A stretch of 64,000 bases of DNA from an uncultured Gemmata sp. Lineage in GTDB: Bacteria; Planctomycetota; Planctomycetia; Gemmatales; Gemmataceae. Each line of letters opens with the position of its first letter. Position 1 is the first letter of the stretch. This document shows positions 1 to 13,382 of this stretch, piece by piece. Position numbers and translations under genes: made by a program. The DNA is taken from assembly GCA_937924775.1 (NCBI GenBank), contig CALDUT010000010.1, positions 1 through 64,000 on the forward strand, in the 5' to 3' direction. The notes under the pieces were generated by a model that did not search any database, had not been told where the DNA came from, and saw only the letters and a list, made by a program, of their open reading frames with translations.

Positions 1-176
1 GCTTGTAGCTCGGCCACGGGGTACAGGACGGTCTTCCGTTTGCCGCTGCCGACGCGAACGCAGGGGATGCGACCTTCTTGGGTCCACTGCCAAAGGGTGC
101 GGGTCGAAATGCCTAGGACCCTCGCTGCTTCGCGGGGCCGCAGGGCGAGGGGAGAGGAAAGGTCGGTCGGAACCAT
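1..176 (-). CDS. Excisionase/MerR-type helix-turn-helix protein, C-terminus cut by window edge
   Basis: The minus strand opens with ATG at 176 and stays open to base 1 (58 codons). The product reads as a HTH_17/AlpA-type domain: ALRPREAARVLGISTRTLWQW is followed by an Arg-rich wing (GRIPCVRVGSGKRKTVLYPV), the usual layout of small excisionase or MerR-like DNA-binding proteins of integrative elements. It probably binds the repeat-rich DNA just upstream (177-391) and directs excision or controls element genes; that role is inferred from family and context. The C-terminus is outside the window, so it may be a short excisionase or the N-terminal domain of something longer. Confidence 0.75.
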   Translation of the reverse strand, partial: MVPTDLSSPLALRPREAARVLGISTRTLWQWTQEGRIPCVRVGSGKRKTVLYPVAELQ

Positions 177-391
177 GATCGTTGCTCCAGCGGATCGCTT
201 GCCGCACAGCGCGGCTTGCTTACCCGTTGGCGCAGCGTTCGGTAAAAAGATGCCGAACAGTTGGCCCGGCGCGGGAAGTCGCCCAGAAAAACCAGGGTTT
301 GCGAAGAAAAGAAAATTTTGCAAGTGTTCGGCAATTCCTGCCGAACGATCGAACACCGAACACCGAACGGCTGCTATTTTGAATCGGCGTC
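177..391. repeat. Intergenic region with clustered CCGAAC/GTTCGG repeats
   Basis: No gene lies here. The hexamer CCGAAC or its complement occurs at 237-242, 253-258, 327-332, 341-346, 356-361 and 363-368. Positions 326-332 and 340-346 form a perfect inverted repeat (GTTCGGC, 7-base spacer, GCCGAAC). From 350 onward CGAACAC is repeated head to tail with a 7-base period. The region is directly upstream of the excisionase-like gene that starts at 176 and reads leftward, so it is probably its operator/promoter, an excisionase-binding array, or replication iterons of an element. The repeats are seen directly; the function is inferred. Confidence 0.6.
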
Positions 392-1015
392 TTAGTCGTC
401 AGGTGCGGCCAGGTCGGATGACGCGTCGCCCAGCAGGTGATAGGGGGCGAATTCGTCGTTCAGCAGCTTCAGGTAAGTTGCCAGCTTGCCGGCGTTCCTG
501 CAGATGGCTTTGTACTTCGCGTACCCCTCAAACTTTTCGTTGAAGAACGCGGAAGCCGTCGATGCCGACACACCCGCCATCTTGGCCAGTTTATTGTTGC
601 CGATGGGTTCCAGGTTCAGGCAACCGCCGTCGGCGTACTGGTGGTGCTTCGTCAGCGCCGCAATGAGTTTCGCCTTAGCGTCGCCTTGTGCCGTGTTTCG
701 CTTGCGCCTTGCGTGGGCCCACGTAATCACTCGTTTCAGGGCCGTCCGCACTTTGAAGTATCGCTGGTACCGGCGGGTGCCGATACGCAGGCGCCAACTC
801 TCTTCATGGTGGACGAGAAGGACGCAAAAGCCCCTCGGCGGCGGCGGCAGCGTCTGGGCCAACTTTTCCGGCAGCACCCGTAGGCCGTCACTATACAGTT
901 TCGCTTGGATGGTGGTCAGAACTTTTGGCTCAATATACGGGTTCTGACGTAACTGCGCGTATGCCTCTTGGCACCATTGGAGGAAGGTTGTCAGATCGGT
1001 AGACGAGTCGGACAT
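392..1015 (-). CDS. Hypothetical protein of a mobile element (207 aa)
   Basis: A 207-residue product I do not recognise. It is basic in the middle (residues about 75-110, rich in Arg and Lys). A possible helix-turn-helix lies at residues about 138-160 (NNKLAKMAGVSASTASAFF), followed by a Tyr/Lys-rich segment. This suggests a DNA-binding accessory or replication-type protein of an integrative element. It is on the same strand as the excisionase-like gene downstream and the small genes upstream. Its length, lack of a competing frame and plausible HTH support it being real. No enzymatic motif is visible. Confidence 0.6.
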   Translation of the reverse strand: MSDSSTDLTTFLQWCQEAYAQLRQNPYIEPKVLTTIQAKLYSDGLRVLPEKLAQTLPPPPRGFCVLLVHHEESWRLRIGTRRYQRYFKVRTALKRVITWAHARRKRNTAQGDAKAKLIAALTKHHQYADGGCLNLEPIGNNKLAKMAGVSASTASAFFNEKFEGYAKYKAICRNAGKLATYLKLLNDEFAPYHLLGDASSDLAAPDD

Positions 1016-1134
1016 GAGTTACCTCTACGGTGCCGGTCGGCTGGCCGGGGTGGCGGTAGAGGCGTCGCCATCTCGACCAGTCGCGTTGCCCGGGCGGGTG
1101 GCCACCCTGCCCGAGACCCGACATGGACATTGTA

Positions 1135-1371
1135 TCACAGCTGTTTGGGCGTATCCATCCCAGCCAGCCCCAAAATGCCATGGACAAACTCAACAGTGCG
1201 CATCTGTCGGCAGTCGGGGCAGCATAGCCGCAAAGGCGGCGATACCACTTGGTGTGTGACGATGACCATCTCCGCAGGGGGGGGAGGCGAAGGGGGTTGC
1301 GGGCAATGGCATTCGCCGTCGTCACCCAGTCGGGCTTCGATCTTGGCCAAGCGTTGCAGCAGTGTTCGCAT
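1135..1371 (-). CDS. Small Cys-rich protein (78 aa), possible zinc ribbon
   Basis: The product has 78 residues. An N-terminal helix (MRTLLQRLAKIEARLG) is followed by a CHC pair, a Pro-rich linker and a CCPDC cluster, suggesting metal binding. Its start overlaps the end of the upstream HTH-protein gene (stop at 1322), consistent with translational coupling in one element operon. Downstream, 1092-1113 holds a strong hairpin (GGGTGGCCACCC flanked by GGGC/GCCC) without a T-run. No family recognised. A longer overlapping frame (930-1325) is judged a shadow. Confidence 0.45.
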   Translation of the reverse strand: MRTLLQRLAKIEARLGDDGECHCPQPPSPPPPAEMVIVTHQVVSPPLRLCCPDCRQMRTVEFVHGILGLAGMDTPKQL

Positions 1372-1726
1372 GGTTAACCCTCGATTCGATGGATTGGATG
1401 CGTTCTTCCAGATCGGCCAGGGCGGCCGCCTTCAGGCCGTGATCCAATAACGCAATGCAGGCGCGTAGACGGATGCCTTCGTTGGCGGATGACGCTAGAC
1501 GCCGTAGCTCGTCAACCGCATGGGTCATCCCATCGGCTAATTGACCAATGGCCCGGGCCGTCATTTCTCGCCGCAACTCGGCGATGCGCTGGCGGAAGGC
1601 CGGGTCGGCCAAGCGACGGTGGGCGGTCTTCTCGCCGATGCCCAGTTCGGCGGCGGCGTCCCGGACGGTCAGACCAGCGGCCAACCGTGCGGCGAGCAAT
1701 TCGTTGATATCACGGCGAATGGTCAT
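1322..1726 (-). CDS. Phage-like helix-turn-helix protein (134 aa)
   Basis: Residues about 15-45 form a clear helix-turn-helix (LTVRDAAAELGIGEKTAHRR) followed by a helical C-terminal half with a heptad-like stretch (ADLEERIQSIESRVNHA). The size and layout match small terminase-like or regulatory HTH proteins of phages and integrative elements. ATG at 1726 lies 2 bases after the stop of a reading frame ending at 1729, and its own end overlaps the next small gene, so the three appear to be co-translated. The specific role is unknown. Confidence 0.6.
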   Translation of the reverse strand: MTIRRDINELLAARLAAGLTVRDAAAELGIGEKTAHRRLADPAFRQRIAELRREMTARAIGQLADGMTHAVDELRRLASSANEGIRLRACIALLDHGLKAAALADLEERIQSIESRVNHANTAATLGQDRSPTG

Positions 1727-1728
1727 AG

Positions 1729-1890
1729 TTAGTCGCAGTCAGCCAAACCCGTCCCCTGATGGCATTCTACCAGAGCCAGGATGGCGGCCTTGATGTGATC
1801 CGGCAGTGTCGGCCAGTTGTCACAAACGCGCTTCAGGTCGGCTGCTGCTCCCGTTGCTGCTCCCGAACCGGGATGTGCGTAGGAAACCCT
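1729..1890 (-). pseudogene. C-terminal remnant of an element gene next to the attachment site
   Basis: An open frame ends at 1729, 2 bases before the HTH gene, and reads DLKRVCDNWPTLPDHIKAAI and onward. This amphipathic tail resembles what I recall ending planctomycete integrases or small element proteins. Upstream the frame runs through the tRNA-Ser fragment, and no convincing start codon exists outside it. I read it as the 3' end of a gene separated from its 5' part by recombination at the tRNA. That history is inference. Confidence 0.3.
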
Positions 1891-1920
1891 AGGATTTCCG
1901 GCGTTTGGTGAATCGGGGGT

Positions 1921-1983
1921 GTGCTTTGCTAAAGCGGCGAGGGGGTAAAACCCCTCCGCGGGTTCGAATCCCGCCCTCTCCGC
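1921..1983 (+). tRNA. 3' part of tRNA-Ser(GCU): probable attachment-site remnant
   Basis: The segment contains an anticodon stem-loop with GCT at 1928-1930 and a long variable arm typical of class II tRNAs (GAGGGG at about 1939-1944 pairs with CCCCTC at about 1951-1956). It also has a perfect T-arm (GCGGG 1958-1962, loop TTCGAAT, CCCGC 1970-1974), then CCTCTCC and discriminator G at 1982. The expected 5' half (GGAGAGG plus D-arm) is absent upstream, so it is not a functional gene. Elements that integrate into tRNA 3' ends leave exactly such fragments at their distal end. Confidence 0.75.
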
Positions 1984-2049
1984 TAAACTCATGTACATTA
2001 TTTTGCGGCGAGTCGCATGGGGTGGCACAAGCGGCCACCCCGTCGCCGT

Positions 2050-2614
2050 TTACGCCCTCGGTCGGCGAATCGCTGCCATCCCCACCGTTGCCTGCTGCAT
2101 CGCTTTTTGCAGCGTGGGTGCATCGCTTTCTGCAGCGCGCGTGGCCCGCTCGAAATGCTCGTCCGTGGTCTGGGCGTAGTGCTTCAGGCTTACCTTGGCA
2201 TCGTGGCCCATCCACAGCGCGACGACATGGACCGGGAACTCCTCAAGCAACTCCGTCTTGTGGCTTGAACGCAACTTGCAGAACAGTTGCTCGTGTAGAA
2301 GCAGTTGCTTTTCGGACGGATTTTTCCCCATCTCCTGGGTTGACCGCAACTTGTGGAACAGTCGCAGCCACGGCTCCGAGCTGGCCCGCTTCACCAACTT
2401 CCTCACTCAACACCGTTCGCAGATTGCACGACGTCCAACCCGTCGGCCCTGTCGCTTTCGCCAAGTGGTCGCCGTCGATGACGAGCGCCTATCCCGGCTC
2501 GGCCAACTCGAGGACCTCCTCCCGATACTTCCGTAGTTCCGGGAAGAGGGGGATCGTAGGGCTTTGGTTACCGTCATAGCGGTCAGTCTTGGGCGACGGC
2601 AGGTTCAGCCAGTT
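2050..2614 (-). pseudogene. Tyrosine recombinase (phage integrase) relic
   Basis: Integrase homology is spread over disrupted frames. From about 2614 downward one frame reads a segment containing SPKTDRYDG and IPLFPELRKY, typical of the integrase middle, and then meets a stop at 2489-2491. After a frame change near 2400 the frame ending at 2050 carries LRSSHKTEL, HVVALWMGHDAKVS and LKHYAQTTDEHFERA, the C-terminal catalytic boxes with the His/Trp and the nucleophilic Tyr. The LFHKLRS/LFCKLRS stretch appears twice, about 72 bases apart, indicating an internal duplication. The N-terminal domain and the first catalytic Arg are missing. It reads toward the tRNA fragment and is probably non-functional. 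Confidence 0.75.
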
Positions 2615-3203
2615 GTGTTGAGACGAGGGCGGATCGTGTCGGCCGGGTCGTCCTCGGCCTAGATCAACAGTGTATCGCCAAGTGCGGTACAGTCGAAGCT
2701 GGGTGGCAGACTCTGCCACGGCAATCGGTGGGGGCTAAGTAGAACACGGCGTCCACCCCGTCCGTGCGGTCATAGATCCGCTTCCTCCTGGTCTGAGTTC
2801 ACGACTGCGGGAACAGATGCTCGATGTCGTCGCACTTCAGGGCAGTAGGTCACTCTGGTATGGCCTCTGTAGGCTCGTATCGACGAATATAAACTCAACA
2901 CCCGACCACCGGGAAGGCCGATTTCTAGACAGTCTCTGAGCCTGCTGACAGAACACATAATTACTAGCTAATCTTGGTCTGGTTATCTGCCAGCCACGCC
3001 AACCGCCCTCGGCCGCATGCCCATCTCAGGGCAGACCGACCGTCCGGTAACGCTTTATTTTATTCGCACAATTTTCTGTTACTTCCTCCCCGAAACAGCG
3101 GTTTGCGATGTGAGACTACCCATGACGACGGTCCCTGATGCCTAACTCCCGCCGGACCGGCAGCAGAGATCAGCTACATTCCGATCATCGGGTTGTCACA
3201 AAA
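2615..3203. other. Non-coding stretch between integrase relic and rhodopsin operon
   Basis: No convincing gene is visible on either strand. The left part is probably further decayed integrase or element DNA. The stretch from about 3050 to 3085 is AT-rich in otherwise GC-rich surroundings. Upstream control elements of the rhodopsin operon may lie here, but I see no clear operator. Confidence 0.5.
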
Positions 3204-3233
3204 TTGCCACTTTTTTGATAGCGATTCCATAAT
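3204..3233 (+). promoter_or_regulatory. Candidate sigma-70-type promoter of the rhodopsin operon
   Basis: TTGCCA at 3204-3209 and CATAAT at 3228-3233 are separated by 18 bases, a good match to a -35/-10 pair. Transcription would start near 3240. This rules out the upstream TTG at 3193 and favours translation from the GTG at 3301, which has CGGAG at 3288-3292, 8 bases before it. Confidence 0.5.
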
Positions 3234-3300
3234 TACACTCCCCGTCCGCGGTCCGGCAACGCGGCGGCAGGAATCCCTACGTGCCGACGGAGCCTTTCCC

Positions 3301-4152
3301 GTGACACTGTTTGGTGAATTGCCAGCGCTAAACCTATTTCAGTACAATTTAGTAGACAATGTCTTCTCGATGACAGTAGCCACTATGGGGGCGGCCGCTC
3401 TGTTTTTCTTCGCCGCTCGGTCGAGCGTGGCCCCAAAGTTCCGCCCAGCTCTTCTCGTGAGTGGCATTGTGGTGGCCATTGCCTGCTACCACTACTTCAT
3501 GATTCGCCAGTCTTGGCAGGGTGCCTACATCTTTGAGAGAACGGCTGACGAGAGTGGCCGGTATGTGGCCAGTGGCAAAGCGTTCAACGACTTCTACCGC
3601 TACGCCGACTGGATTCTGACAGTGCCTCTGCTCATGGTTGAGCTTGTCACCGTCATGGCTCTGCCAGCCGCTATGGCCCGGCCGCTGCTTCTTAAGCTGG
3701 TGGTTGCCGCTGCCCTGATGATCGGCCTGGGCTACCCAGGCGAGATCTCCAATGATTGGACCACCCGGCTCATTTGGGGGATCTTGAGCAGCGTGCCCTT
3801 CCTCTACATACTGTACGTGCTGTGGATCGAGTTAACAAAATCGCTGGATACTCAGCCGCAGGAAGTGCGAGGACTGATCGGAGCCGCCCGGTTGATAATC
3901 CTTATCACCTGGGCATTCTACCCGATCGCCTACGCCATCTACGGCGATTCCCTACCAGGAGCCATACCGGGCATCGTCGGCGAGAGGTCGGCCCTCGGGG
4001 TCATTGGGGTGCAGGTCGGGTACGCCATCGCTGACATCACAGCCAAAGCCGGGTTCGGTGTATTGATCTATCTGATCGCCCTGCGTAAGACCGCGGCCCT
4101 AGATCCAGCCGAACGGGAGGCGCAAGAGCGGGCTGCCGTCGCCTTGGCGTGA
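3301..4152 (+). CDS. Light-driven proton-pumping rhodopsin, xanthorhodopsin/Gloeobacter type
   Basis: A 283-residue seven-helix microbial rhodopsin of the inner membrane. From GTG 3301, helix C reads YRYADWILTVPLLMVE, giving counterion Asp103, Thr107 and carboxylic proton donor Glu114: the DTE set of outward proton pumps. Leu111 at the spectral tuning site predicts green absorption. His64 (CYHYF) matches the His that pairs with the counterion in xanthorhodopsin. Helix G has Asp245 and the retinal-binding Lys249 (ADITAK). Gly160 in LIWGILSS aligns with Gly178 of Gloeobacter rhodopsin (Gly156 of xanthorhodopsin), which opens the antenna-carotenoid fenestration. The helix A-E sequence follows Gloeobacter rhodopsin closely as I recall it. 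The open frame extends upstream to a TTG at 3193, but promoter and RBS positions favour 3301. Confidence 0.95.
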   Translation: MTLFGELPALNLFQYNLVDNVFSMTVATMGAAALFFFAARSSVAPKFRPALLVSGIVVAIACYHYFMIRQSWQGAYIFERTADESGRYVASGKAFNDFYRYADWILTVPLLMVELVTVMALPAAMARPLLLKLVVAAALMIGLGYPGEISNDWTTRLIWGILSSVPFLYILYVLWIELTKSLDTQPQEVRGLIGAARLIILITWAFYPIAYAIYGDSLPGAIPGIVGERSALGVIGVQVGYAIADITAKAGFGVLIYLIALRKTAALDPAEREAQERAAVALA

Positions 4153-4182
4153 CCTAACCCGAGGCGTTGTGAGGTCTGTCCA

Positions 4183-5043
4183 ATGCAGCACACCATTCTC
4201 GAGGCGATCGTGCTGGCTGGGTGTGTGGCAATAGTTGGCATGCCGCATGGAGGCCTGGACCATCTCTTTGGCCAGGCCGTCTTAGAGCCACTCGGAGGTC
4301 GGTGGTGGTGGACCTGGTTTACCAGCTTGTATCTCGGGGTGGCCGGGCTGATGGTGGCTGGTTGGTTGGTTGCTCCGGCCGTCACTGTGACAATGTTTTT
4401 CCTGCTGTCGGCCTATCACTTCGGTGCGGCCGATGGTCGCCGTGGGTTGGCTGGCTTGGTCGAGGGTGGGGCGGTCATTTGGGTTCCCTTGCTGGCTCGG
4501 CCGCAAGAAGTCTCTCAACTCCTGGCTTGGGTGATACCAGCTGGGCAGCCGGAGGTGGTGCTGGCTGCAATCGAGTTGCTACGACTGCCGTTGATAGTGG
4601 TCGCGGCTGGATTTTCCGTTTACTTACTTACGTTGGCATGGCGGGGTGAGATGGCATTGGCCCTTCGGTTGTGCGTGTTTGCCGGGCTATTCGCCGCTGT
4701 GCCGGTATTGATCGGGTTCGGTCTGTTCTTCTGCGGCTGGCACTCCCCGCATGAGATGTGGCAACTGGCCCGCTGGGCCAACCCGACTCGGCCGCTTGAA
4801 GGGCTTGCGACCGTGGTTCGGTTGGCTGCCCCCTGGGCGGCGGCTGCGATCATTGCTACGGCAATCATAGCCTGGTGGTTCGCCGAGAGTCGCAGTTTGA
4901 CGTCGGTTGTGGTGCAGGCCGTTTTTCTTGGCCTGAGTGCCGTGGCTGTGCCCCACATTCTGCTACACACGGCCGTCGACCGTCTAGGAGCCAACCCGCT
5001 TATCCGAAGGAAGTTGCAATGTACGAGCGTCGCGACTATCTGA
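4183..5043 (+). CDS. blh: Beta-carotene 15,15'-dioxygenase, Brp/Blh family
   Basis: A 286-residue integral membrane protein that cleaves beta-carotene into two retinals, the rhodopsin chromophore. The family's metal-ligand histidines are visible: PHGGLDH at 21-27, YHFG at about 78-81, WHSPHE in the second half and PHILLH near the C-terminus. Several hydrophobic helices lie between them. ATG 4183 follows the rhodopsin stop by 30 bases, with GTGAGG upstream. Its last 25 bases overlap crtY. Position directly after the rhodopsin gene strongly supports retinal supply as its job. Confidence 0.93.
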   Translation: MQHTILEAIVLAGCVAIVGMPHGGLDHLFGQAVLEPLGGRWWWTWFTSLYLGVAGLMVAGWLVAPAVTVTMFFLLSAYHFGAADGRRGLAGLVEGGAVIWVPLLARPQEVSQLLAWVIPAGQPEVVLAAIELLRLPLIVVAAGFSVYLLTLAWRGEMALALRLCVFAGLFAAVPVLIGFGLFFCGWHSPHEMWQLARWANPTRPLEGLATVVRLAAPWAAAAIIATAIIAWWFAESRSLTSVVVQAVFLGLSAVAVPHILLHTAVDRLGANPLIRRKLQCTSVATI

Positions 5044-6173
5044 TCGTTGGCGGTGGGCTGACTGGCGGGTTGATCGCTCTGGCCGTGCGTCACTGGCGGC
5101 CGACCGCCACGGTAACGGTAGTCGAACGAGCCGCTCGACCGGCCGGTAACCACACCTGGGCGTTTCACGCTATGGATGTGCCGTCGGCGGCCGACGATTT
5201 CATCCGCCCCCTGGTGGTTGCCAGCTGGGATGGCTATCGGGTGCGATTCCCGGGGTACGAGCGGGAGGTATGCCAGCGGTACTCGTCCATTACCGCCGAC
5301 CGCTTCGCTGCGGCGGTTGAGCAGAGTGGATGTGAGCTGCTAACCGGGGCCGAGGTGGTGCGGCTGACGGCCGACCGGATCGAACTGGCTGATGGCCGGG
5401 AGCTAGCCGGTCGGTGCGTGATCGACGCCCGCGGCCCGGCTGCCAACCTGCCACTAGGCTGTGGGTTCCAGAAGTTCGTTGGGCTCGAGGTTGAGGTGGA
5501 CCGACCGTGGCCGCACCCGCTGCCGACCGTGATGGACGCCGCCGTGCCGCAGGACGACGGCTACCGGTTCATGTACACCTTGCCGTTCACACCCACCCGC
5601 GTGCTGGTCGAGGACACTTATTTTAGCGACGCCCCCCACCTAGACCGGAATAAGCTGCGAACCCGGGTCGGCGACTACCTGCGGGCTCACGGGATCAGTT
5701 CGTGGCGGGTGGTGCGAGAGGAGTCCGGAGTGCTACCGATGCCATGGTCCGGCGGTGGGGCAGCGGTGGATCGCAGCGGGCCGTTGGTAGTAGGGTACGC
5801 CGGTGGTTGGTTCCACCCGGCCACGGGGTACTCGATCCCACTGGCGGTGCGGTTGGCTCTGGCGGTGGCAAGCGTGCCGCCGGAGCAGGCCCACGTTGCC
5901 GCCGCCAAGTTGGCCCGCCAGGTAGCCCGCCGGCAGCGATTCGGTCGGTTTCTCAATTGGTTGTTGTTCACACTGGTCACGCCCGACCAGCGGTGGCGAG
6001 TATTCCGCCGCCTCTATCGTTCACTCCCCGACGAGGTCATGTGTCGGTTTTACGCCTGTAGGTTCAATGCGATTGACGCCGGACGTCTGCTCGTGGGGTG
6101 GCCTCCCCCCCTCTCTCTTTCCCGCTTGATCCATCGCCCCGAGGTGCGTCCGTGCCTGCTGCCGTTGACATAG
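5019..6173 (+). CDS. crtY: Lycopene beta-cyclase, CrtY type
   Basis: The 384-residue FAD-dependent enzyme would convert lycopene to beta-carotene, the Blh substrate. The N-terminus has the dinucleotide-binding motif YLIVGGGLTGGLIA. The central part carries the lycopene cyclase pattern (VIDARGP near 125, and GYAGGWFHPATGYS near the C-terminal third, which is characteristic of CrtY). I start it at ATG 5019, preceded by GAAGGAAG; the open frame extends to 4875 but that part lies inside blh. It overlaps blh by 25 bases and crtE by 22. Codons are rich in G or C at third positions. Confidence 0.9.
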   Translation: MYERRDYLIVGGGLTGGLIALAVRHWRPTATVTVVERAARPAGNHTWAFHAMDVPSAADDFIRPLVVASWDGYRVRFPGYEREVCQRYSSITADRFAAAVEQSGCELLTGAEVVRLTADRIELADGRELAGRCVIDARGPAANLPLGCGFQKFVGLEVEVDRPWPHPLPTVMDAAVPQDDGYRFMYTLPFTPTRVLVEDTYFSDAPHLDRNKLRTRVGDYLRAHGISSWRVVREESGVLPMPWSGGGAAVDRSGPLVVGYAGGWFHPATGYSIPLAVRLALAVASVPPEQAHVAAAKLARQVARRQRFGRFLNWLLFTLVTPDQRWRVFRRLYRSLPDEVMCRFYACRFNAIDAGRLLVGWPPPLSLSRLIHRPEVRPCLLPLT

Positions 6174-7168
6174 CCCCCACTGGCCGGCAAGCCGACCCGC
6201 TAGCCGTTTTCCACCGCCCGATCAAAACGGCCCCGCCGGGTGTACCGCCACGGCTATGGGAGAAGGCCCTAGCTGGACCGGTGGCCGAGTTCCTAAGCCG
6301 CCCCGGCAAGCGGTTCCGCGGCGAGCTCGTGGTGCGGTCTTGGGAGTTGGCTGGCCGCCAAGACGCGCCACCTCCGGCCCTACCGCTAGTGGTCGAGTTG
6401 CTGCACGCTGGGTCGCTGATTGTGGACGACATACAGGATGGCTCGGTGCAGCGGCGGGGCCGAGCGGCTCTGCACCGACAGGTTGGCTTACCGGTGGCCC
6501 TAAATACTGGCAACTGGTTGTACTTCTGGTCGCTCACCCTGCTCGGCGAGCTCGGCTTGCCAGCGGCCGTTGAGCGGCGGCTGCACCGGCTGACGGCAGC
6601 TGCCGTTCGACGCTGCCATGAGGGCCAGGCGCTCGACCTGACAGCCCGGATCGGTGACCTGCACCTGGCTGAGGTGCGTACCGTCTGCCGGTTGGTGAGT
6701 GAGTGGAAGACGGGCAGCCTGATGGGGCTGGCGGCCACCCTTGGGGCCACTGCCGCTGGCGGCAGCGACGCCCTGGTGGCCGCCCTGGAGCGGTTCGGGA
6801 CACGGCTCGGGGTGGCCCTCCAGATGCAAAACGATCTGAGCGAACTGACTGGGGCAGCTGGCCCGCTCAAACACCCGGAAGACCTGGTTCACGGCCGGGT
6901 GACGTGGCCATGGGTATGGGCGGCCGAGAGGCTGCCGGCCAGGAGCTTCAACGCTCTCCAGGCGCGGGGGGCCAAGCTTGCGGCCGGGATTGGGGACGCT
7001 GCTGCCCTGGCGACCGATCTGCTGGCTGCCCTTGGCTCGGACCCCCGTTGGCCGGTGCGGGACGAGCTAGCTGCCGCCTACGCTGACCTGGCTGCGGCCG
7101 TTGGCCCTCACCCGACGCTAGCTGCTATCCGGGCTGAAATTGACCGGCTGGAGCGGAAGTATGCCTAA
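6152..7168 (+). CDS. crtE: Polyprenyl (geranylgeranyl) diphosphate synthase, CrtE-like
   Basis: The 338-residue trans-isoprenyl diphosphate synthase supplies GGPP for CrtB. GKRFRG and the first Asp-rich motif DDIQD (92-96) are intact. The second motif, normally DDxxD, is NDLSE at 227-231 (MQNDLSEL), a conservative but unusual departure that could affect chain length or metal binding. I prefer GTG 6152, which has GAGGTG just upstream; an in-frame GTG at 6098 is the alternative and adds 18 residues. It overlaps crtY upstream and the PsiE-like gene downstream. Confidence 0.85.
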   Translation: MPAAVDIAPTGRQADPLAVFHRPIKTAPPGVPPRLWEKALAGPVAEFLSRPGKRFRGELVVRSWELAGRQDAPPPALPLVVELLHAGSLIVDDIQDGSVQRRGRAALHRQVGLPVALNTGNWLYFWSLTLLGELGLPAAVERRLHRLTAAAVRRCHEGQALDLTARIGDLHLAEVRTVCRLVSEWKTGSLMGLAATLGATAAGGSDALVAALERFGTRLGVALQMQNDLSELTGAAGPLKHPEDLVHGRVTWPWVWAAERLPARSFNALQARGAKLAAGIGDAAALATDLLAALGSDPRWPVRDELAAAYADLAAAVGPHPTLAAIRAEIDRLERKYA

Positions 7169-7652
7169 ACCCGCCCAGCCCCTAGTGGACGATCGCACCC
7201 GGACGGTCATCACCCGAGTGTTCCGGCTGCTCGAAGACATCATCTTCATCGGCCTAGGAGCGTTGCTGGCCGGCACTGCCATGTACCTGCTGGCGAACGC
7301 CTCTCTCAACTTCAGCGGACATCTGATCGCGCTCAACCTGACTGGGCCAGCCGTCATCACTCTCATCGAGGAGCTGCTACTGGTACTGCTAGTGGTCGAA
7401 ATTCTATACACAGTTCAGGTATCGTTCCGTGAGCATACACTGGCTCCGGAGCCGTTCCTTCTGATCGGGCTGATCGCGGCTGTTCGCCGGGTGCTGGTCA
7501 TCACTGCCGAACAAGCCGAGCTGAAGAACAAGGGCGAGGACGTGTTCCGCTATCTGATGATCGAGCTGGGCGTGTTGACCGTGCTCATCGTGGCGTTGGT
7601 GGCTTCGGTGATGATGCTCCGGCGTCCGGGCAAGGAGACGGGGCATGGCTGA
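7161..7652 (+). CDS. PsiE-like integral membrane protein inside the rhodopsin/carotenoid operon
   Basis: A 163-residue protein with about four membrane segments (roughly 25-50, 60-85, 93-112 and 135-158). The pattern of an acidic residue pair in a hydrophobic helix (LIEELLLVLLVVEILYTV) followed by an amphipathic stretch ending AAVRRVLVIT matches the phosphate-starvation-inducible PsiE family. ATG 7161 has GAGCGGAAG before it and overlaps the crtE stop by 8 bases; its own end overlaps crtI by 8. PsiE proteins have no established biochemical function. The context suggests a part in assembling or regulating the photosystem, but this is inference. Confidence 0.75.
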   Translation: MPKPAQPLVDDRTRTVITRVFRLLEDIIFIGLGALLAGTAMYLLANASLNFSGHLIALNLTGPAVITLIEELLLVLLVVEILYTVQVSFREHTLAPEPFLLIGLIAAVRRVLVITAEQAELKNKGEDVFRYLMIELGVLTVLIVALVASVMMLRRPGKETGHG

Positions 7653-9132
7653 CCGGCAGGCAGCGGTCATCGGTAGCGGGTTTGGCGGGTTGGCGGCCGC
7701 CTGCCGGCTGGCTGCTCTGGGCGTCAAGACTACCCTGTTCGAGGCCCGGGACAAGCCTGGCGGCCGGGCTTATGTGTACACGGACCAGGGGTTCACGTTC
7801 GACGCAGGGCCGACGGTTATCACGGCCCCGGAGTGCCTGCAGGAAGTGTTCACGGCCGGTGGCAAGCGGCTTTCGGATTATGTCCAACTGCTACCAGTGA
7901 GCCCGTTCTACCGGCTCGTCTGGCCAGACGGCGTGCAGTTCGACTACGTTGGCGACGTGACCGCCCTGGAGGAGCAGATCCGCAAGATCAGCCCCCGCGA
8001 TCTCGACGGCTATCGGCGCTTCTACGACTACACGAAGCGGGTGTACGCGAAGGGGTACGAAGAGCTTGGGGCGACGCCGTTTTTGCGGTTCTGGGACATG
8101 GTCAAGATCGCCCCGCATTTGGCTTGGCTGCGAGCCGACCGAAGCGTCTACCACACCGTTAGCCAGTTCGTGAAAAGCAAGCACCTGCGGCAGGCGTTTA
8201 GCTTCCATACCCTGCTGGTCGGTGGCAACCCATACACCACCAGCAGCATTTACACCCTCATTCATTACTTGGAGCGAAAGGGGGGAGTGTGGTTCCCCCG
8301 GGGCGGCACCGGGGCGTTGGTGCGGGCCTTTTGTAAGCTGTTCACTGACCTCGGCGGGGAGTTGCGGCTCAACGAGCCGGTGCTTCATATCGACGTAAAG
8401 CAGAACGGGACGACCAAGCATCTCGTCACGACGAACGCCGGCACGAAAGCGTTTGACCTGGTGGTGTCCAACGCCGACGTGCACCACACCTACCACCGAC
8501 TCTACGCCACATCGCCCGACGCCGTCCGGATGGCGAGCCGGCTCGAGCGTATGGAATGGTCGATGTCGCTGATGGTCCTTTATTTCGGGACCAACGTGCG
8601 GTATCCCGATCTGGCCCATCACACGATCCTGTTCGGCCCGCGGTACAAGGGGCTGCTGGACAACATCTTCCGCGGCAACCGGGTAGCCGACGACTTCAGC
8701 TTGTACCTGCACGCCCCGACGGTGACGGACCCGTCCCTGGCACCGCCGGGCGGGGAAGCATTCTACGTTCTCAGCCCGGTGCCGCACCTCGGCCGGGCGA
8801 ACATCGATTGGGCTGAGTTCGGGCCGGTGTACGCCGACCGCATCCTGGCGGCACTGGAACAGCACCTGCCCGGTCTGCGGGCGAACATCGTCACCCAACG
8901 GATGTTCACACCGGCCGATTTCCGAGATGTTCTGAACGCCTACCATGGTTCGGCCTTCTCGCTGGCCCCGCGTTTGACCCAGAGTGCGTACTTTCGGCCA
9001 CACAACCGGGACGCGGGTATCCCCGGGCTGTATCTGGTGGGGGCCGGCACCCACCCCGGGGCTGGTGTGCCGGGGGTGGTGAACTCGGCCAAGACGACGA
9101 TTGAACTGATACGCCGGGAGCTGGGGCTGTGA
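7645..9132 (+). CDS. crtI: Phytoene desaturase, CrtI type
   Basis: The 495-residue FAD-dependent desaturase/isomerase would convert phytoene to lycopene. The N-terminus has AAVIGSGFGGLAAACRLA, then FEARDKPGGRA and FDAGPTVIT, all standard for CrtI. The C-terminal FAD signature is YLVGAGTHPGAGVPGVV. Length is typical. ATG 7645 follows AAGGAG at 7632-7637. It overlaps the PsiE-like gene and shares a GTGA junction with crtB. A 561-codon antisense frame (7891-9576) is a shadow of this GC-rich gene. Confidence 0.95.
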   Translation: MADRQAAVIGSGFGGLAAACRLAALGVKTTLFEARDKPGGRAYVYTDQGFTFDAGPTVITAPECLQEVFTAGGKRLSDYVQLLPVSPFYRLVWPDGVQFDYVGDVTALEEQIRKISPRDLDGYRRFYDYTKRVYAKGYEELGATPFLRFWDMVKIAPHLAWLRADRSVYHTVSQFVKSKHLRQAFSFHTLLVGGNPYTTSSIYTLIHYLERKGGVWFPRGGTGALVRAFCKLFTDLGGELRLNEPVLHIDVKQNGTTKHLVTTNAGTKAFDLVVSNADVHHTYHRLYATSPDAVRMASRLERMEWSMSLMVLYFGTNVRYPDLAHHTILFGPRYKGLLDNIFRGNRVADDFSLYLHAPTVTDPSLAPPGGEAFYVLSPVPHLGRANIDWAEFGPVYADRILAALEQHLPGLRANIVTQRMFTPADFRDVLNAYHGSAFSLAPRLTQSAYFRPHNRDAGIPGLYLVGAGTHPGAGVPGVVNSAKTTIELIRRELGL

Positions 9133-10064
9133 CCGACGAGCGGGCGAGCATCCGGCGGCACAGCAAGAGTTTCGCCCTAGCAGCCCGGCTGCTGGCCCCG
9201 GCCGCCCGTCGCTATGCCGAACGGCTGTACGCCTGGTGTCGATTCGCCGACGACGCGGTCGACCACGCCCCGAACCTGGACGCGGCTGCGGCCGCTGTGA
9301 CGGAGTTGCGGGCCGACCTCGAAGCGGTGTACGCCGGCCGGGAGCCTCGGACGGTCGAGAGCAAGTTGCTGGCCTCAGTGGTTGCCGAGTGTAAGCTGCC
9401 CCGGACGTACCCGGACGAGTTGCTGGCCGGCCTCGGCATGGACGCGGCCGGCACACGCTACCGAACAGTCGACGACCTGCTGATGTACTGTCACCGGGTG
9501 GCGGGTGTGGTTGGGTTGATGATGTGCCACACCCTGGGGGTGGCCGACGACCGGGCCGGGCCACATGCCGGGGCACTCGGCCTCGCCATGCAGCTTACCA
9601 ACATCGCCCGGGACGTGGCCGAGGACTGGAACCGGGGCCGGCTATACCTTCCTCTCGACTGGCTGGGTGAGGAACCCCCGGCCGGCCAGCGGCTGGCCGA
9701 CGCGATGGCGGCCCCGGCTGTGCGGCGGCTACTCGAACTGGCCGACGCCCACTATGACAACGGGTTGGCCGGGCTGCCATACCTAACCGAGCGCTGCCAG
9801 CTAGCGGTACGGGTGGCGGCCGACCTGTACCGAGCCATCGGTGGTCGGGTTCGGGCAGTAGGCTGTCGGCCCTCAGCCGGGCGGGCGGTCGTGCCCGGCT
9901 GGCGTAAACTGGTCGCAGTGCTGTCGGCTGTCCTCCGGGTCGTTGTCGCACACCGCCCGATGGCCGTTGGCCCGCCGACTACGGTCTGGTCGTACACCCC
10001 GGGCGCCGGGTACGTTCCAGCGAATCCCGGTGCCCTCTTACTTGCTACTGGAGGACCGACATGA
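9129..10064 (+). CDS. crtB: Phytoene synthase
   Basis: The 311-residue squalene/phytoene synthase would condense two GGPP to phytoene. Both Asp-rich motifs are visible: YAWCRFADDAVDH near 35-47 and LTNIARDVAEDWNRGRLYLP near 157-176. GTG 9129 overlaps the crtI stop in a GTGA arrangement. The end overlaps the small membrane-protein gene in an ATGA arrangement. With crtE, crtI and crtY it completes the route to beta-carotene. Confidence 0.94.
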   Translation: MTDERASIRRHSKSFALAARLLAPAARRYAERLYAWCRFADDAVDHAPNLDAAAAAVTELRADLEAVYAGREPRTVESKLLASVVAECKLPRTYPDELLAGLGMDAAGTRYRTVDDLLMYCHRVAGVVGLMMCHTLGVADDRAGPHAGALGLAMQLTNIARDVAEDWNRGRLYLPLDWLGEEPPAGQRLADAMAAPAVRRLLELADAHYDNGLAGLPYLTERCQLAVRVAADLYRAIGGRVRAVGCRPSAGRAVVPGWRKLVAVLSAVLRVVVAHRPMAVGPPTTVWSYTPGAGYVPANPGALLLATGGPT

Positions 10065-10303
10065 TAACCACCCGCGAGGCGTGGCACGTGGTAACGTTTG
10101 GTCTGACCCTAGTTCTGATCGTAGCCACCGTGCTGTTCGTGCTGGTTGGGCTCAACCCGAAGCAGGAGAGTTATGGCCATCTACCCTGGGTGTACGCCGG
10201 GCTGTCGATCATCGGTGCGGCGATCCTGTGGCAGGTGTCCGGGTGGTTCGCCCAAGCGGCCTCCGACGACTCGGCTAGGGCAAATCCGAATCGGATGAGC
10301 TGA
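10061..10303 (+). CDS. Small two-helix membrane protein (80 aa) ending the rhodopsin operon
   Basis: The 80-residue product has two hydrophobic segments (about 10-31 and 43-65) joined by a short polar loop with KQESYGHLPW, and a polar C-terminal tail. ATG 10061 overlaps the crtB stop (ATGA), with GGAGG at 10050-10054, so it is clearly translated as part of the operon. I do not recognise the family. It could be a carotenoid-pathway scaffold or a rhodopsin accessory subunit; neither is shown by the sequence. Confidence 0.65.
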   Translation: MITTREAWHVVTFGLTLVLIVATVLFVLVGLNPKQESYGHLPWVYAGLSIIGAAILWQVSGWFAQAASDDSARANPNRMS

Positions 10304-10333
10304 GCCGGCGGCTCGACCGACAGCATGGTCGGT
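10302..10333 (+). terminator. Two adjacent hairpins after the rhodopsin operon
   Basis: GAGCC/GGCTC (10302-10314) and ACCGAC/GTCGGT (10316-10321 with 10328-10333, 6-base loop) sit right at and after the last stop codon. No T-run follows, so they may protect the 3' end rather than act as a classical terminator. Confidence 0.35.
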
Positions 10334-11283
10334 AGCGACCGCCATCTGCCGGTTCGGCGGCACAGACACACCCATCAGTCCCCGGGCTGGTCTGTTTGTA
10401 GCACTAATCTGCGCGGCACATGCGTCACCCTGATACGGTTAGCGCTGGGGAGGCGAGCGAATCGGCCGGAGTCGAGCAGCGTCTGGTCGAGCAATATCTG
10501 GCAGTGGCGAGCGAGCTTCACCGAGTGGCGGCTCCCTAACGGGCTTCGACTCCGGTTTCCTGGAGAAGACCCGCGTTCCGGGAAAATAGTTTGAGGATCG
10601 CCCCTTAGTGCAACCTGTTGATGTGAAACAGTCCCTGTTCGACGAACCCTGGTTCGAGTTGCGTACGCCCCAGGGAGCTTTTTAATTATGCCTGTAGCCC
10701 TGTTCCCCACGGTTTTAGAGCGACGAAGCTGAGAGCCTTCCACTCCGCTTAACGCCTGTTCTGTATGTTGCGGTGAATAGCGTTGAGTGGCATAAGTGAC
10801 CATTAGGTCAGAATTTATGCTTTTGGTCCGCAAAGCGATGTTGTTATCTGTCCGATTCTGCGGTCCTGAATTGTTAAGCAGACACGTCTGGCGATTCTAA
10901 ACAAAAAACTTTAGCTTGCTTTTCCGCAATCGGCGGATGATCGTTGGGTAGACAGGTCGGGTGTTGTGAACCTGTTTCGTTTCTGAACGTGATGTGGAGC
11001 TTGCCAGTAAGCTGCTGCCGTCGAGAGGGCGCTACAGATCCTCGGAATTTCCTTCGGGGGCTCTGAAAAGCACTGTGGCTCCGTTGTGAGGAGTGGGGTA
11101 TTTGCGATCGGCTTTGGCCGCGTCATCTTCTGATCTTGTCTGTGTTATCTGGAGTCTAGTCATTTCACTCAAAGGTAGGGAGTTCTGTTTCCTTGGCCGC
11201 TCTCAACCTCATTGGCTGAACTCCATTAGGCTTTCGCTATACAATAGTGATAAGCTCTGCCGACCTCTGAGGTCCGCTGTTCG
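10304..11283. other. About 1 kb intergenic region right of the rhodopsin operon
   Basis: No convincing gene. A 39-codon frame at 10420-10539 (starts MRHPDTVSAG, ends SELHRVAAP) has protein-like composition and may be a gene remnant or a tiny peptide. A terminator-like hairpin sits at 10647-10683. The segment from about 10800 is AT-richer. A possible -10 (TATACAAT, 11238-11245) precedes the heme genes, with only a loosely spaced TTGGCT at 11212-11217 as -35. This probably marks the right edge of acquired DNA. Confidence 0.5.
10647..10683 (+). terminator. Candidate Rho-independent terminator
   Basis: CCCTGG (10647-10652) pairs with CCAGGG (10670-10675) across a 17-base loop and is followed by AGCTTTTT. 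The stem is short and the loop is long, so this is a weak candidate. Confidence 0.3.
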
Positions 11284-12117
11284 ATGAGTGTTTCACCCTT
11301 TCAAGGTGTCACCCACGCCTGCTTCGCCTTGAGCTATCTGTGTGCGTTGTTACTCGAAATCGCACGCGTATTGTGGCCGGCCCGGGGCTGGCGGGTAGCG
11401 AGTTTGCTTTTCGGCGCTGGGGGGATTGTGGCGCATACCGCGTATTTGCTCTACAATCAGCCGCCACCGGCGGCTCCGTATGGTTCGTTGTTGCTGCTGG
11501 CGTGGGTGCTGGCACTGTTTTACATCTACGGTACTGTTCACCATGCCAAACAAGCCTGGGCGGTGTTTGTACTCCCGGTAGTGCTTGGGTTGGTGGGATT
11601 GTCGTTGGTTTGGGTCATGACGGCTCCAGAAACCACGTCCTGGAGTGCCACCGAATGGACCGCCGCTCATCGGATTTGGGGAGCGATCCACGGGGTCATG
11701 CTGTTGCTGGGGGCTGTGGGAGTCAGTGTGAGCTTCCTCGCCAGTGTGATGTACTTGATGCAAGCCCGGCGACTGCGGAAGAAGGTTCTGCCCGATAGTG
11801 TCGTGCCAATTTTGAGCCTGGAACGGCTCGAAACCATGAACCGGCGGGCGTTGAACGTCGCTTTTCCCCTTCTCACGGCCGGTTTATTTCTTGGATCGCT
11901 GCTTTTGCCGGAGGCTTACAGGCTAGAGGGGCACTGGTTGTCGCTCAAGATCCTTTCCACCGCCGGTTTGTGGCTGGTTTTTCTGCTGTTGGTGTATCTG
12001 CGTTATGCCGTGCATGTCCCGCCACGGCGGTTGGCTTGGCTGTCGATTCTGGCGTTTGGTTTACTCTTGCTGGCCTTGTTAGCATCGCATCCCTTTGCCG
12101 TTGGAGGTACCGCATGA
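11284..12117 (+). CDS. hemX: Cytochrome c assembly family membrane protein, HemX/CcsA-like
   Basis: A 277-residue protein with about eight membrane helices and the cytochrome c assembly pattern around AHRIWGAIHGVMLLLGAVG, followed by a helix ending MYLMQARRLR. Placement directly before hemA with an ATGA overlap is typical of HemX, which in other bacteria influences HemA levels; CcsA family members handle heme for cytochrome c maturation. The Trp-rich WWD motif of true CcsA is not obvious, which favours HemX. ATG 11284 has no strong RBS. Confidence 0.75.
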   Translation: MSVSPFQGVTHACFALSYLCALLLEIARVLWPARGWRVASLLFGAGGIVAHTAYLLYNQPPPAAPYGSLLLLAWVLALFYIYGTVHHAKQAWAVFVLPVVLGLVGLSLVWVMTAPETTSWSATEWTAAHRIWGAIHGVMLLLGAVGVSVSFLASVMYLMQARRLRKKVLPDSVVPILSLERLETMNRRALNVAFPLLTAGLFLGSLLLPEAYRLEGHWLSLKILSTAGLWLVFLLLVYLRYAVHVPPRRLAWLSILAFGLLLLALLASHPFAVGGTA

Positions 12118-13382
12118 ATCTCCGGGCGATTGGGTGTAATGTCGAATCGGCCACTGTGGAGCTTCGCGAAAAGCTGGCGTTTGATTCGGTGAAAACCCAG
12201 AAAGCGCTTGCGGAACTCAATGCACGCTATGCGGCGGAAGCGGTGATTTTGGGAACGTGCAATCGCGTGGAACTGTATGTGGCTCGCCAAGAAACGGTGG
12301 CCCCGTTGCATGCGCCCCTCATTGCCGAATTTCTCAGCGAAGTTCATGGTTTGCCAGCCCAGGAAATCGCCCCGCACCTCTATGAACATGCGGATGCTGC
12401 CGCGGCCCGGCATCTGTTTCGCGTGGCTAGTGGCCTCGATAGCGTGGTTTTGGGTGAAAGCCAAATCGCCGGGCAGGTGAAAGAGGCCTTTGAGTTTGCC
12501 CAGAAAGCCAATGCCACCGGCCCCCTGCTCAATACGCTTTTTCCCGCGGCGTTGCGGGTGTCTAAACGGGTCCGCAGTGAAACCGGAATCGCTCAAGGTC
12601 ACGTTTCGGTTTCCAGTGCTGCGGTCGATTTCGTCCGCCAGGTGTTTGATACGTTCACTGATAAAACCATCCTGGTGATTGGAGCCGGCAAGATGGGCCG
12701 GTTGACCCTGAATCACCTCGCGGAACTGAAACCGGCGGCTGTCTTGGTGACCAATCGCAATTCCGCCCGGGCCGAACAAAGTGCCCGCAAATGCAACGGC
12801 CGCGTCATTGCCTGGGAACAGCTCGACGATGCTTTGGTGCAGGCCGACATCGTTCTCAGCACCACCGGGGCCCCCGAACCGATTGTGTCACGGCGGCGTT
12901 TCGAGGACAAAGTCCGCCGCCGCCGGGCCGGGCGGACGTTGCTCATCTTCGATATGGCCGTTCCGCGGGATTTTGACCCCGAGATTCACGACGGCGATAC
13001 TGTGAATCTGTTCAACGTGGACGATCTTACACGCGTGGCCGATCAACGCATGGCCGAGCGCCGCCGGCACATTCCCGCGGCGGAAGCCATCATCGAGGCT
13101 GAAGTGGCCAAATTCGTGGCCGATTGGAACCGACGGGCCAACGGCCCGGTGATTGGGCAACTGACCGCGGAGGTAGACAAACTGCGCGAAGCCATCCTCG
13201 GCCCGCTTCTGGTCAAATTGAACGGCAAACTGACAGACCCTGAGAAGGCCTTTATCGAACAGGCTTTCCGTTTGTTCCAAAATCGCCTCTTGCACGGTCC
13301 GATTGCAGCGTTGCAAGAGGCCAGTCACGAAGGACACGGCAGCCTCCGCGACGCCCTCCGCAAACTGTTTGGACTCAAGTGA
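12114..13382 (+). CDS. hemA: Glutamyl-tRNA reductase
   Basis: The 422-residue enzyme reduces Glu-tRNA(Glu) to glutamate-1-semialdehyde, the first step of C5-pathway heme synthesis. The catalytic Cys49 lies in GTCNRVELY. GLDSVVLGESQIAGQVKEA, the NADPH-binding ILVIGAGKMG and the C-terminal dimerisation helices are all present, and length is normal. ATG 12114 overlaps the hemX stop. Codons are less GC-biased than in the rhodopsin operon, consistent with a native core gene. Confidence 0.96.
   Translation: MNLRAIGCNVESATVELREKLAFDSVKTQKALAELNARYAAEAVILGTCNRVELYVARQETVAPLHAPLIAEFLSEVHGLPAQEIAPHLYEHADAAAARHLFRVASGLDSVVLGESQIAGQVKEAFEFAQKANATGPLLNTLFPAALRVSKRVRSETGIAQGHVSVSSAAVDFVRQVFDTFTDKTILVIGAGKMGRLTLNHLAELKPAAVLVTNRNSARAEQSARKCNGRVIAWEQLDDALVQADIVLSTTGAPEPIVSRRRFEDKVRRRRAGRTLLIFDMAVPRDFDPEIHDGDTVNLFNVDDLTRVADQRMAERRRHIPAAEAIIEAEVAKFVADWNRRANGPVIGQLTAEVDKLREAILGPLLVKLNGKLTDPEKAFIEQAFRLFQNRLLHGPIAALQEASHEGHGSLRDALRKLFGLK

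Follow-up and report, generated by a model that had tools for sequence, protein, structure and literature searches.

Proteorhodopsin/retinal clusters combine a rhodopsin gene with blh and carotenoid genes. In this study, we analysed a planctomycete counterpart of these clusters, an operon of eight genes at positions 3301–10303 of the first 64,000 nucleotides of contig CALDUT010000010.1 (assembly GCA_937924775.1) from an uncultured Gemmata sp. of the family Gemmataceae; this whole stretch is referred to here as the window. As in the clusters covered in the accessible part of one report (PMC13043013), a rhodopsin gene stands beside blh and carotenoid genes, whereas the order rho-blh-crtY-crtE-(psiE)-crtI-crtB-small, an extra two-helix gene and non-canonical histidines in Blh set the planctomycete operon apart. 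With the xanthorhodopsins of subgroup I, such as Salinibacter xanthorhodopsin (XR) and Gloeobacter rhodopsin, the window rhodopsin shares the DTE motif, the helix-B His, the retinal Lys and the antenna-window Gly; the subgroup I clusters, however, are described in the available sections of PMC3646047 as being without conserved retinal genes, while the planctomycete rhodopsin sits in a full conserved retinal cluster.

Rhodopsin at the phylum level is not new to the planctomycetes, as it was already reported in 2017 and 2019. The accessible parts of the literature include an Isosphaera-like planctomycete that carries both a xanthorhodopsin-like and a carotene-cleaving gene (PMC5459899), five green rhodopsins from freshwater planctomycetes (PMC6461901) and Planctomycetota listed among rhodopsin-bearing metagenome-assembled genomes (MAGs; PMC13043013). 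The part available of a comparison of isolates gives no rhodopsin in them (PMC11588811), and a further paper, in its available part, names planctomycetes only within the reference list (PMC9601134). The host phylum of the window operon is that of the first three reports, and a carotene-cleaving gene is common to it and the Isosphaera-like organism; a planctomycete operon order, a last gene, Blh residues or transfer do not feature in the accessible parts of these three. Our literature search, which was short on subscription journals and covered main texts without supplements, found no published account of the operon anatomy, a CrtB anchor or the Blh change. What appears to be new here is the horizontal exchange of the operon, its conserved last gene and a Blh without an equivalent of His192.

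Our best explanation, which we hold with a probability of about 0.82, is that the locus is a self-contained operon for retinal phototrophy, with a route to retinal, a proton pump, an anchor for CrtB and a history of transfer within the Gemmataceae. It draws on gene content and order, key residues, incongruent trees, a GC bias and a scar of tRNA and integrase, all read from the DNA itself. We regard the operon as real and predict that it is probably functional. It would probably be read as a single mRNA with coupled translation; CrtE would form geranylgeranyl diphosphate (GGPP), CrtB would convert this to phytoene, CrtI phytoene to lycopene and CrtY lycopene to beta-carotene, which Blh would cleave to retinal. 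Retinal bound at Lys249 of a xanthorhodopsin-type outward proton pump would then add to the proton motive force in the light. The operon would supply this C40 route beside a resident squalene route (HpnC, an HpnD-like protein and HpnE), and it probably arrived by horizontal transfer within the Gemmataceae, at a tRNA-Ser/integrase hot spot, a complete retinal-phototrophy unit being exchanged between genera of the family. Light use by planctomycetes becomes a question for the bench, for which the operon offers a construct of just 7 kb and Rubripirellula obstinata (L048) a relative in culture with the same operon. The locus also exposes two unstudied parts, namely a carotene dioxygenase without a reportedly essential residue and a conserved membrane protein linked to phytoene synthase.

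Re-derived coordinates agree with the eight genes, positions and overlaps given in a first-pass annotation of the window. Rhodopsin, blh, crtY, crtE, a psiE-like gene, crtI, crtB and a gene for 80 amino acids (aa) are open frames on the plus strand (Table 1), with a gap of 30 bases between rhodopsin and blh and subsequent overlaps of 25, 22, 8, 8, 4 and 4 bases. These sizes depend on the chosen start codons: alternative upstream starts (crtY GTG 4875, crtE GTG 6098, psiE TTG 7140) would only lengthen the overlaps, and with the next in-frame internal starts (crtY TTG 5070, crtE GTG 6281) two of them would vanish. Tight gene packing is usual in Gemmataceae operons. In profile searches, the operon proteins exceeded the curated cut-offs of PF01036, PF15461/TIGR03753, TIGR01789, PF00348, PF06146, TIGR02734 and PF00494, and the annotation's view that the gene set is complete holds; the top NCBIfam match of CrtB is the 15-cis-phytoene synthase model, under the cut-off of that model. 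The genome (4.79 Mb, 97% complete) has a single rhodopsin. Speaking against a defined transcription unit, a promoter scan gave two sites where 1.3 were expected and terminator-like sites numbered seven against 5.2 expected, which leaves the transcript ends undefined.

Table 1. Features of the operon and of the upstream scar in the window
Feature	Position	Strand	Basis or remark
tRNA-Ser(GCT) 3' fragment, 62-base stretch spanning the 3' 61 bases, probable attachment site	1923..1984	+	100% identity to own tRNA-Ser(gct) gene on C14
Degraded tyrosine-recombinase gene, beside/over the tRNA fragment	1931..2680	-	tblastn with the intact 475-aa integrase of G000:C6
Rhodopsin, xanthorhodopsin-type, 283 aa	3301..4152	+	GTG start (TTG 3193 alternative); PF01036 136 bits
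blh, beta-carotene 15,15'-dioxygenase family, 286 aa	4183..5043	+	TIGR03753 151.6 bits, cut-off 95.25
crtY, lycopene beta-cyclase	5019..6173	+	TIGR01789 331 bits, cut-off 215.2
crtE, polyprenyl (GGPP) synthase	6152..7168	+	PF00348 139 bits; Asp-rich motifs
psiE-like membrane protein, 163 aa	7161..7652	+	PF06146 34.8 bits, cut-off 23.9
crtI, phytoene desaturase family	7645..9132	+	TIGR02734 657 bits, cut-off 238
crtB, phytoene synthase	9129..10064	+	PF00494 218 bits
Two-helix membrane protein gene, 80 aa, outside known families	10061..10303	+	Conservation beside crtB

To place the operon, we scanned named genomes, which gave 90 relatives, and took the best 80 forward; among these, 63 loci are, by record title, from planctomycetes outside the Phycisphaerae, one of them from the cultured R. 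obstinata. These loci and the printed reports do not support the earlier statement that rhodopsin phototrophy is little documented in planctomycetes. The planctomycete host of the annotation is borne out by the nearest named relatives, which are Fimbriiglobus (also Gemmataceae) and Gemmata MAGs. Rhodopsin is present in 9/95 genomes of the family, in 2/19 of the genus, source genome included, and in a sample of the phylum 18/392 genomes match, 16 of them above the cut-off. The search of planctomycete genomes for the same gene order that the annotation had proposed was made with the window, G074 and the 63 named-genome loci: wherever all six genes are present, in 44 loci with the window counted, they stand in the order rho-blh-crtY-crtE-crtI-crtB, which argues that the layout is more than chance. 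Within the class of the host, the gene set is common. All six core genes are found in each of the 35 loci with more than 7.5 kb past rhodopsin, and blh follows rhodopsin on its 3' side in 62 of the 65, the other three ending just past rhodopsin. The Phycisphaerae loci L073 and L082 show another gene order and other Blh residues. The planctomycete tallies leave aside L072–L077 and L079–L089 (mostly other phyla or unassigned by title, and including the two Phycisphaerae loci), L004 and L091 (distant rhodopsin) and L001–L003 and L005–L009 (duplicates of other loci or of the window). Plasmid records matched rhodopsin in three cases, and two Blh queries in three and four.

The best solved relatives of the window rhodopsin are psXR (9wfa), Gloeobacter rhodopsin (6nwd) and xanthorhodopsin (3ddl). 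Aligned with them, it retains the counterion D103, T107, the donor E114, the retinal-binding K249 and H64 of helix B, as the first-pass annotation had claimed for the counterion, donor and retinal residues. Judged by these residues, the protein is predicted to be an outward proton pump of the xanthorhodopsin type. In the 65 planctomycete rhodopsins of the gene-order set the Asp, Thr, Glu, His and a tuning Leu are invariant, and the retinal Lys is present in 64, the remaining sequence being cut off. The Leu occupies the tuning position of the window protein as well, which from general knowledge of proteorhodopsin we take to mean green absorption. The antenna-window Gly is present as G160; this position is Gly in 62/65 planctomycete rows and Phe in 3/65. 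Four of seven antenna-site residues named in the available part of PMC3646047 are retained (G156, L194, L197 and, by eye, I205), and three are altered (T160 to S, A198 to I and G201 to A). A carotenoid antenna is possible for this rhodopsin. The genome has no match to CrtZ-type hydroxylase (PF04116), and none of its four PF00487 genes matches a carotenoid NCBIfam model at E 1e-10, their nearest models being DesA and GntB, under cut-off. With neither a hydroxylase nor a ketolase identified in the genome, we dropped local synthesis of an antenna pigment as an explanation.

The first-pass annotation held that known enzyme functions lead from isoprenyl diphosphates to retinal. The enzyme set is indeed complete, and two of its members call for caution, Blh being without an equivalent of His192 and the prenyl synthase having a degenerate second Asp-rich motif. 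According to the accessible part of PMC9227343, a marine Blh keeps less than 5% activity when Ala takes the place of His21, His78, His188 or His192. By spacing and alignment, the marine sequence itself being outside the comparison, these positions correspond to H22, H79, H187 and E191 of the window protein. H22, H79 and H187 are invariant in the 61 planctomycete Blh proteins from outside the Phycisphaerae, while position 191, a point against a canonical enzyme, is Gly in 53, Glu in 8 and His in none; the eight proteins with Glu are the eight from Gemmataceae. In six other aligned Blh, two of them from Phycisphaerae, position 191 is His in five and Gln in one. The window Blh is therefore a homologue that is missing one residue reported as essential, and its activity is a prediction.

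It might be that this Blh is impaired or makes a product other than retinal, and that the rhodopsin obtains retinal elsewhere or stays poorly loaded. The replacement of His192 by Gly or Glu in 61/61 proteins and the low activity of the marine His192 to Ala enzyme in the available part of PMC9227343 are in line with this idea. It seems rather improbable to us, as blh lies 3' of rhodopsin in 62/65 loci, the three others ending just after rhodopsin, as the other three histidines are kept throughout and as the long retention of Blh suggests that it functions. In addition, His262, one turn past His258, is compatible with a shifted ligand. This residue, four positions after His258, is found in 58/61 planctomycete Blh (Tyr in L065, two proteins cut off) and in none of the six others; His27, an alternative candidate, is likewise present in 58/61 but also in 2/6 of the others. 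These counts rest on a small outgroup (n=6) and are uncorrected for relatedness. In a structure model with a predicted local distance difference test score (pLDDT) of 91.9, H187 and E191 lie on one helix and H258 and H262 on another. The metal ligand may have moved, with His262 substituting from a different helix for the His192 equivalent. A PDB fold search with the model gave no match at E ≤0.001, and hence no template for the metal site, a PDB sequence search gave none at E up to 1, and no canonical Blh was confirmed in the viral contigs searched. As a tentative extension, and one that we consider unlikely to hold in full, the Blh of Planctomycetia might be a re-wired carotene dioxygenase in which the fourth histidine that binds the metal is gone from the HSxRH motif (Gly or Glu instead) and His262 takes its place. 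The retinal of these rhodopsins would then come from a class of enzymes whose metal site is new, acting together with a membrane-anchored phytoene synthase, and the whole would have spread between species as a unit.

In CrtE, the first Asp-rich motif, DDIQD, is present and the second is degenerate (NDLSE instead of DDxxD), a point against the proposed pathway; a similar change is seen in the second motif of the planctomycete CrtE relatives displayed. In NCBIfam, CrtE scores best with a family 2 encapsulin cargo polyprenyl transferase, though at well under the cut-off of that model. We read CrtE as a putative GGPP synthase, its product length being a prediction only. The psiE-like gene occurs in the window and in G007, G008, G045 and G046 and was not found in G022, G047 or G074; it marks one of two Gemmataceae operon clades. 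The PsiE of locus L010 scores 38.4 bits with PF06146, against a cut-off of 23.9.

The last gene had no family match at E 0.001, and a Pfam search at E up to 10 with it and three relatives returned just membrane families below their cut-offs. Homologues are nevertheless present in 40 of 43 planctomycete operons, window included; the 43 are those of the 65 loci with enough sequence past crtB, and the three operons without the gene are psiE-bearing Gemmataceae. Locus L013 is not among the 43, crtB being absent from its stretch, and a second contig (L173) carries its last gene. The gene adjoins crtB in 40/40 operons and shares its open frame in 19/40, including one from Gemmataceae (L090). In 16 of these 19, the exceptions being L030, L061 and L066, an ATG preceded by a GGA-type stretch is retained (a count made without a chance control), so that the protein may be produced fused to CrtB as well as on its own. 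In an AlphaFold model of the fused protein of L068, a body of the phytoene-synthase type is followed by a loose linker and then by a two-helix hairpin predicted with confidence (pLDDT 88.4). The body resembles CrtM-like and HpnC structures and so shares the fold of squalene/phytoene synthases, from which the fused CrtB differs by the extra C-terminal hairpin. Eukaryotic squalene synthase has a C-terminal membrane anchor. The genome has three PF00494 genes, namely the operon crtB, hpnC (above its cut-off) and an hpnD-like gene (below its cut-off) beside hpnE; among five genomes of the genus, three copies were counted in both rhodopsin carriers and two in each of the others. Most likely, the last gene encodes a putative membrane anchor or partner that keeps CrtB at the membrane. 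A serious possibility, if the less probable one, is that it serves the rhodopsin or the whole carotenoid pathway, for example as an assembly factor or pigment carrier. In a search of the 95 family genomes all five strong matches fall in rhodopsin carriers (two weak ones, at E about 5e-4, were excluded from the count), the retained ATG and GGA-type stretch make a separate product feasible, and the gene was not found in three psiE-bearing operons. Its constant place beside crtB and the frame shared in 19 loci, L090 among them, argue instead for CrtB as its partner.

Several observations suggest that the operon was exchanged horizontally between Gemmataceae genera. The RpoB of the congener G022 is 98.6% identical to that of the source genome over 1071 columns (tree support 100/100), yet the proteins of the two operons are only 72% (rhodopsin), 58% (CrtB) and 45% (Blh) identical. 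In a six-protein tree, one clade (91/94) contains the window, G046, G045, G008 and G007, all with psiE, and the other (100/100) contains G022, G047 and G074. The window groups with G046, a member of a different genus (96/96); G022 falls with G047 and G074 (99/98, 100/100). Forcing the window and G022 together was rejected by the approximately unbiased (AU) test with p 6e-6, an indicative value since the pair was picked after viewing the trees. For G046, crtI and crtB were taken from a second contig: L013 has rho-blh-crtY-crtE and then 1.5 kb of other DNA, and L173 has psiE-crtI-crtB-small, so that either the operon itself is divided or the assembly is broken here. The GC content of the operon is 0.644 compared with 0.581 for window positions 11–64 kb, no 7-kb stretch of the remainder exceeds 0.598, and the G022 operon is also GC-rich (0.641 against 0.59 in its surroundings). 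For crtY and the five genes that follow it, GC at third codon positions (GC3) is 0.75–0.82, and none of 24 long open reading frames, listed mechanically, exceeds 0.71; the values for rhodopsin (0.70) and blh (0.68) fall inside the range of the remaining frames, a point against the transfer reading. It could be argued that no transfer took place and that an old duplication in the Gemmataceae gave two operon types, which were then differentially lost. Genus g20 does hold both types (G045 and G046 versus G047), and the presence of rhodopsin is patchy (9/95). We give this little credence, as no carrier among the nine has a second rhodopsin, the operon is an outlier in GC and GC3, and the two species with near-identical RpoB hold it at differing chromosomal sites. 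With the near-identical RpoB but different operon clade, the GC anomaly and the tRNA/integrase scar described below, it seems likely that the operon reached this species by transfer.

This scar, on which the first-pass annotation was silent, as it was on transfer, lies 0.6–1.4 kb upstream of the operon and comprises a fragment of tRNA-Ser(GCT), whose complete gene is on contig C14 of the source genome, and an integrase remnant with matches in two frames (64.5% over 110 columns and 36% over 266 columns). ARAGORN found no tRNA in the window, and an Rfam search of positions 1–12000 at E up to 0.5 gave four matches, all under the gathering score and all around the fragment. Longer relatives of the integrase in the genome adjoin tRNA-Ser(GGA), as a 475-aa frame with PF00589 above cut-off, and tRNA-Ser(CGA). 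The operon of G022 has a tRNA-Ser(GCT) upstream as well, there intact, along with integrase scraps, and the flank before that tRNA, in which a DNA polymerase I gene was recognised by eye, matches contig C14 of the source genome. We propose that the site is a hot spot for integration at tRNA-Ser and that the operon moved, or was swapped, by way of it, possibly by the integrase. A number of results weigh against this proposal or against its being a general rule. The right flanks differ, that of the window being found at G022 C55 (conserved, 80%) and that of G022 at C3 of the source genome, where no operon gene was found in 14 kb around the site; the G022 operon itself is on G022 C48. The integrase copies beside both operons are broken, a tRNA scan of 60 loci found tRNA-Ser only at that of G022, and the window integrase has matches in only 4/82 loci, window and G022 included. 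Finally, a tRNA-end repeat and an integrase, as in integrative islands, are present, but instead of two ends enclosing the operon a single one was seen, and the contig starts 1.9 kb before it. The tRNA link is thus a shared context of the window and G022 rather than an island mapped at both ends. An integrase-like stretch 37% identical to the tRNA-Ser integrase also lies 0.9 kb upstream of the rhodopsin of a lake planctomycete (L047:1508-2089, minus strand).

The window and its contig, which is 613 kb long, share their first base, and one may ask whether the operon was joined to this contig by an error of assembly or binning. Only 3.3 kb separate the operon from the contig end, and within the first 3 kb there are stretches that also occur close to the ends of C1 and C6 and at other places. 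We consider such an artefact very improbable indeed, given the same gene order in the other 43 loci and a right flank conserved at 80% in G022. Mis-binning in particular was rejected, since rpoB is encoded on the same contig, from 147,755. Parts of window positions 1–3300 are found at the ends of C1 and C6 and on C10 near 501 kb, and the assembly may break at copies of the tRNA-Ser and integrase.

Some minor features of the loci deserve mention. Downstream of the operon, at window positions 11284–13382, there are genes for a cytochrome c assembly protein and glutamyl-tRNA reductase. The rhodopsin of L004 (G054:C775) is only about 30% identical, and no blh or crt matches were found within its 3.3 kb. 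In L066, blh and crtY appear to share a single open frame (11000–12832), and in L015 crtI and crtB, instead of overlapping, are about 466 bases apart. Eleven loci, including L053 (8930–9844, minus strand), have upstream of rhodopsin a gene for a conserved protein with helix–turn–helix (HTH) and B12-binding-like parts, for which the Pfam scores are below cut-off; we take it to be reminiscent of the CarH/LitR light regulators. It was not seen beside the window operon, and the eight of its eleven placements that were listed are all on the minus strand, just upstream of rhodopsin.

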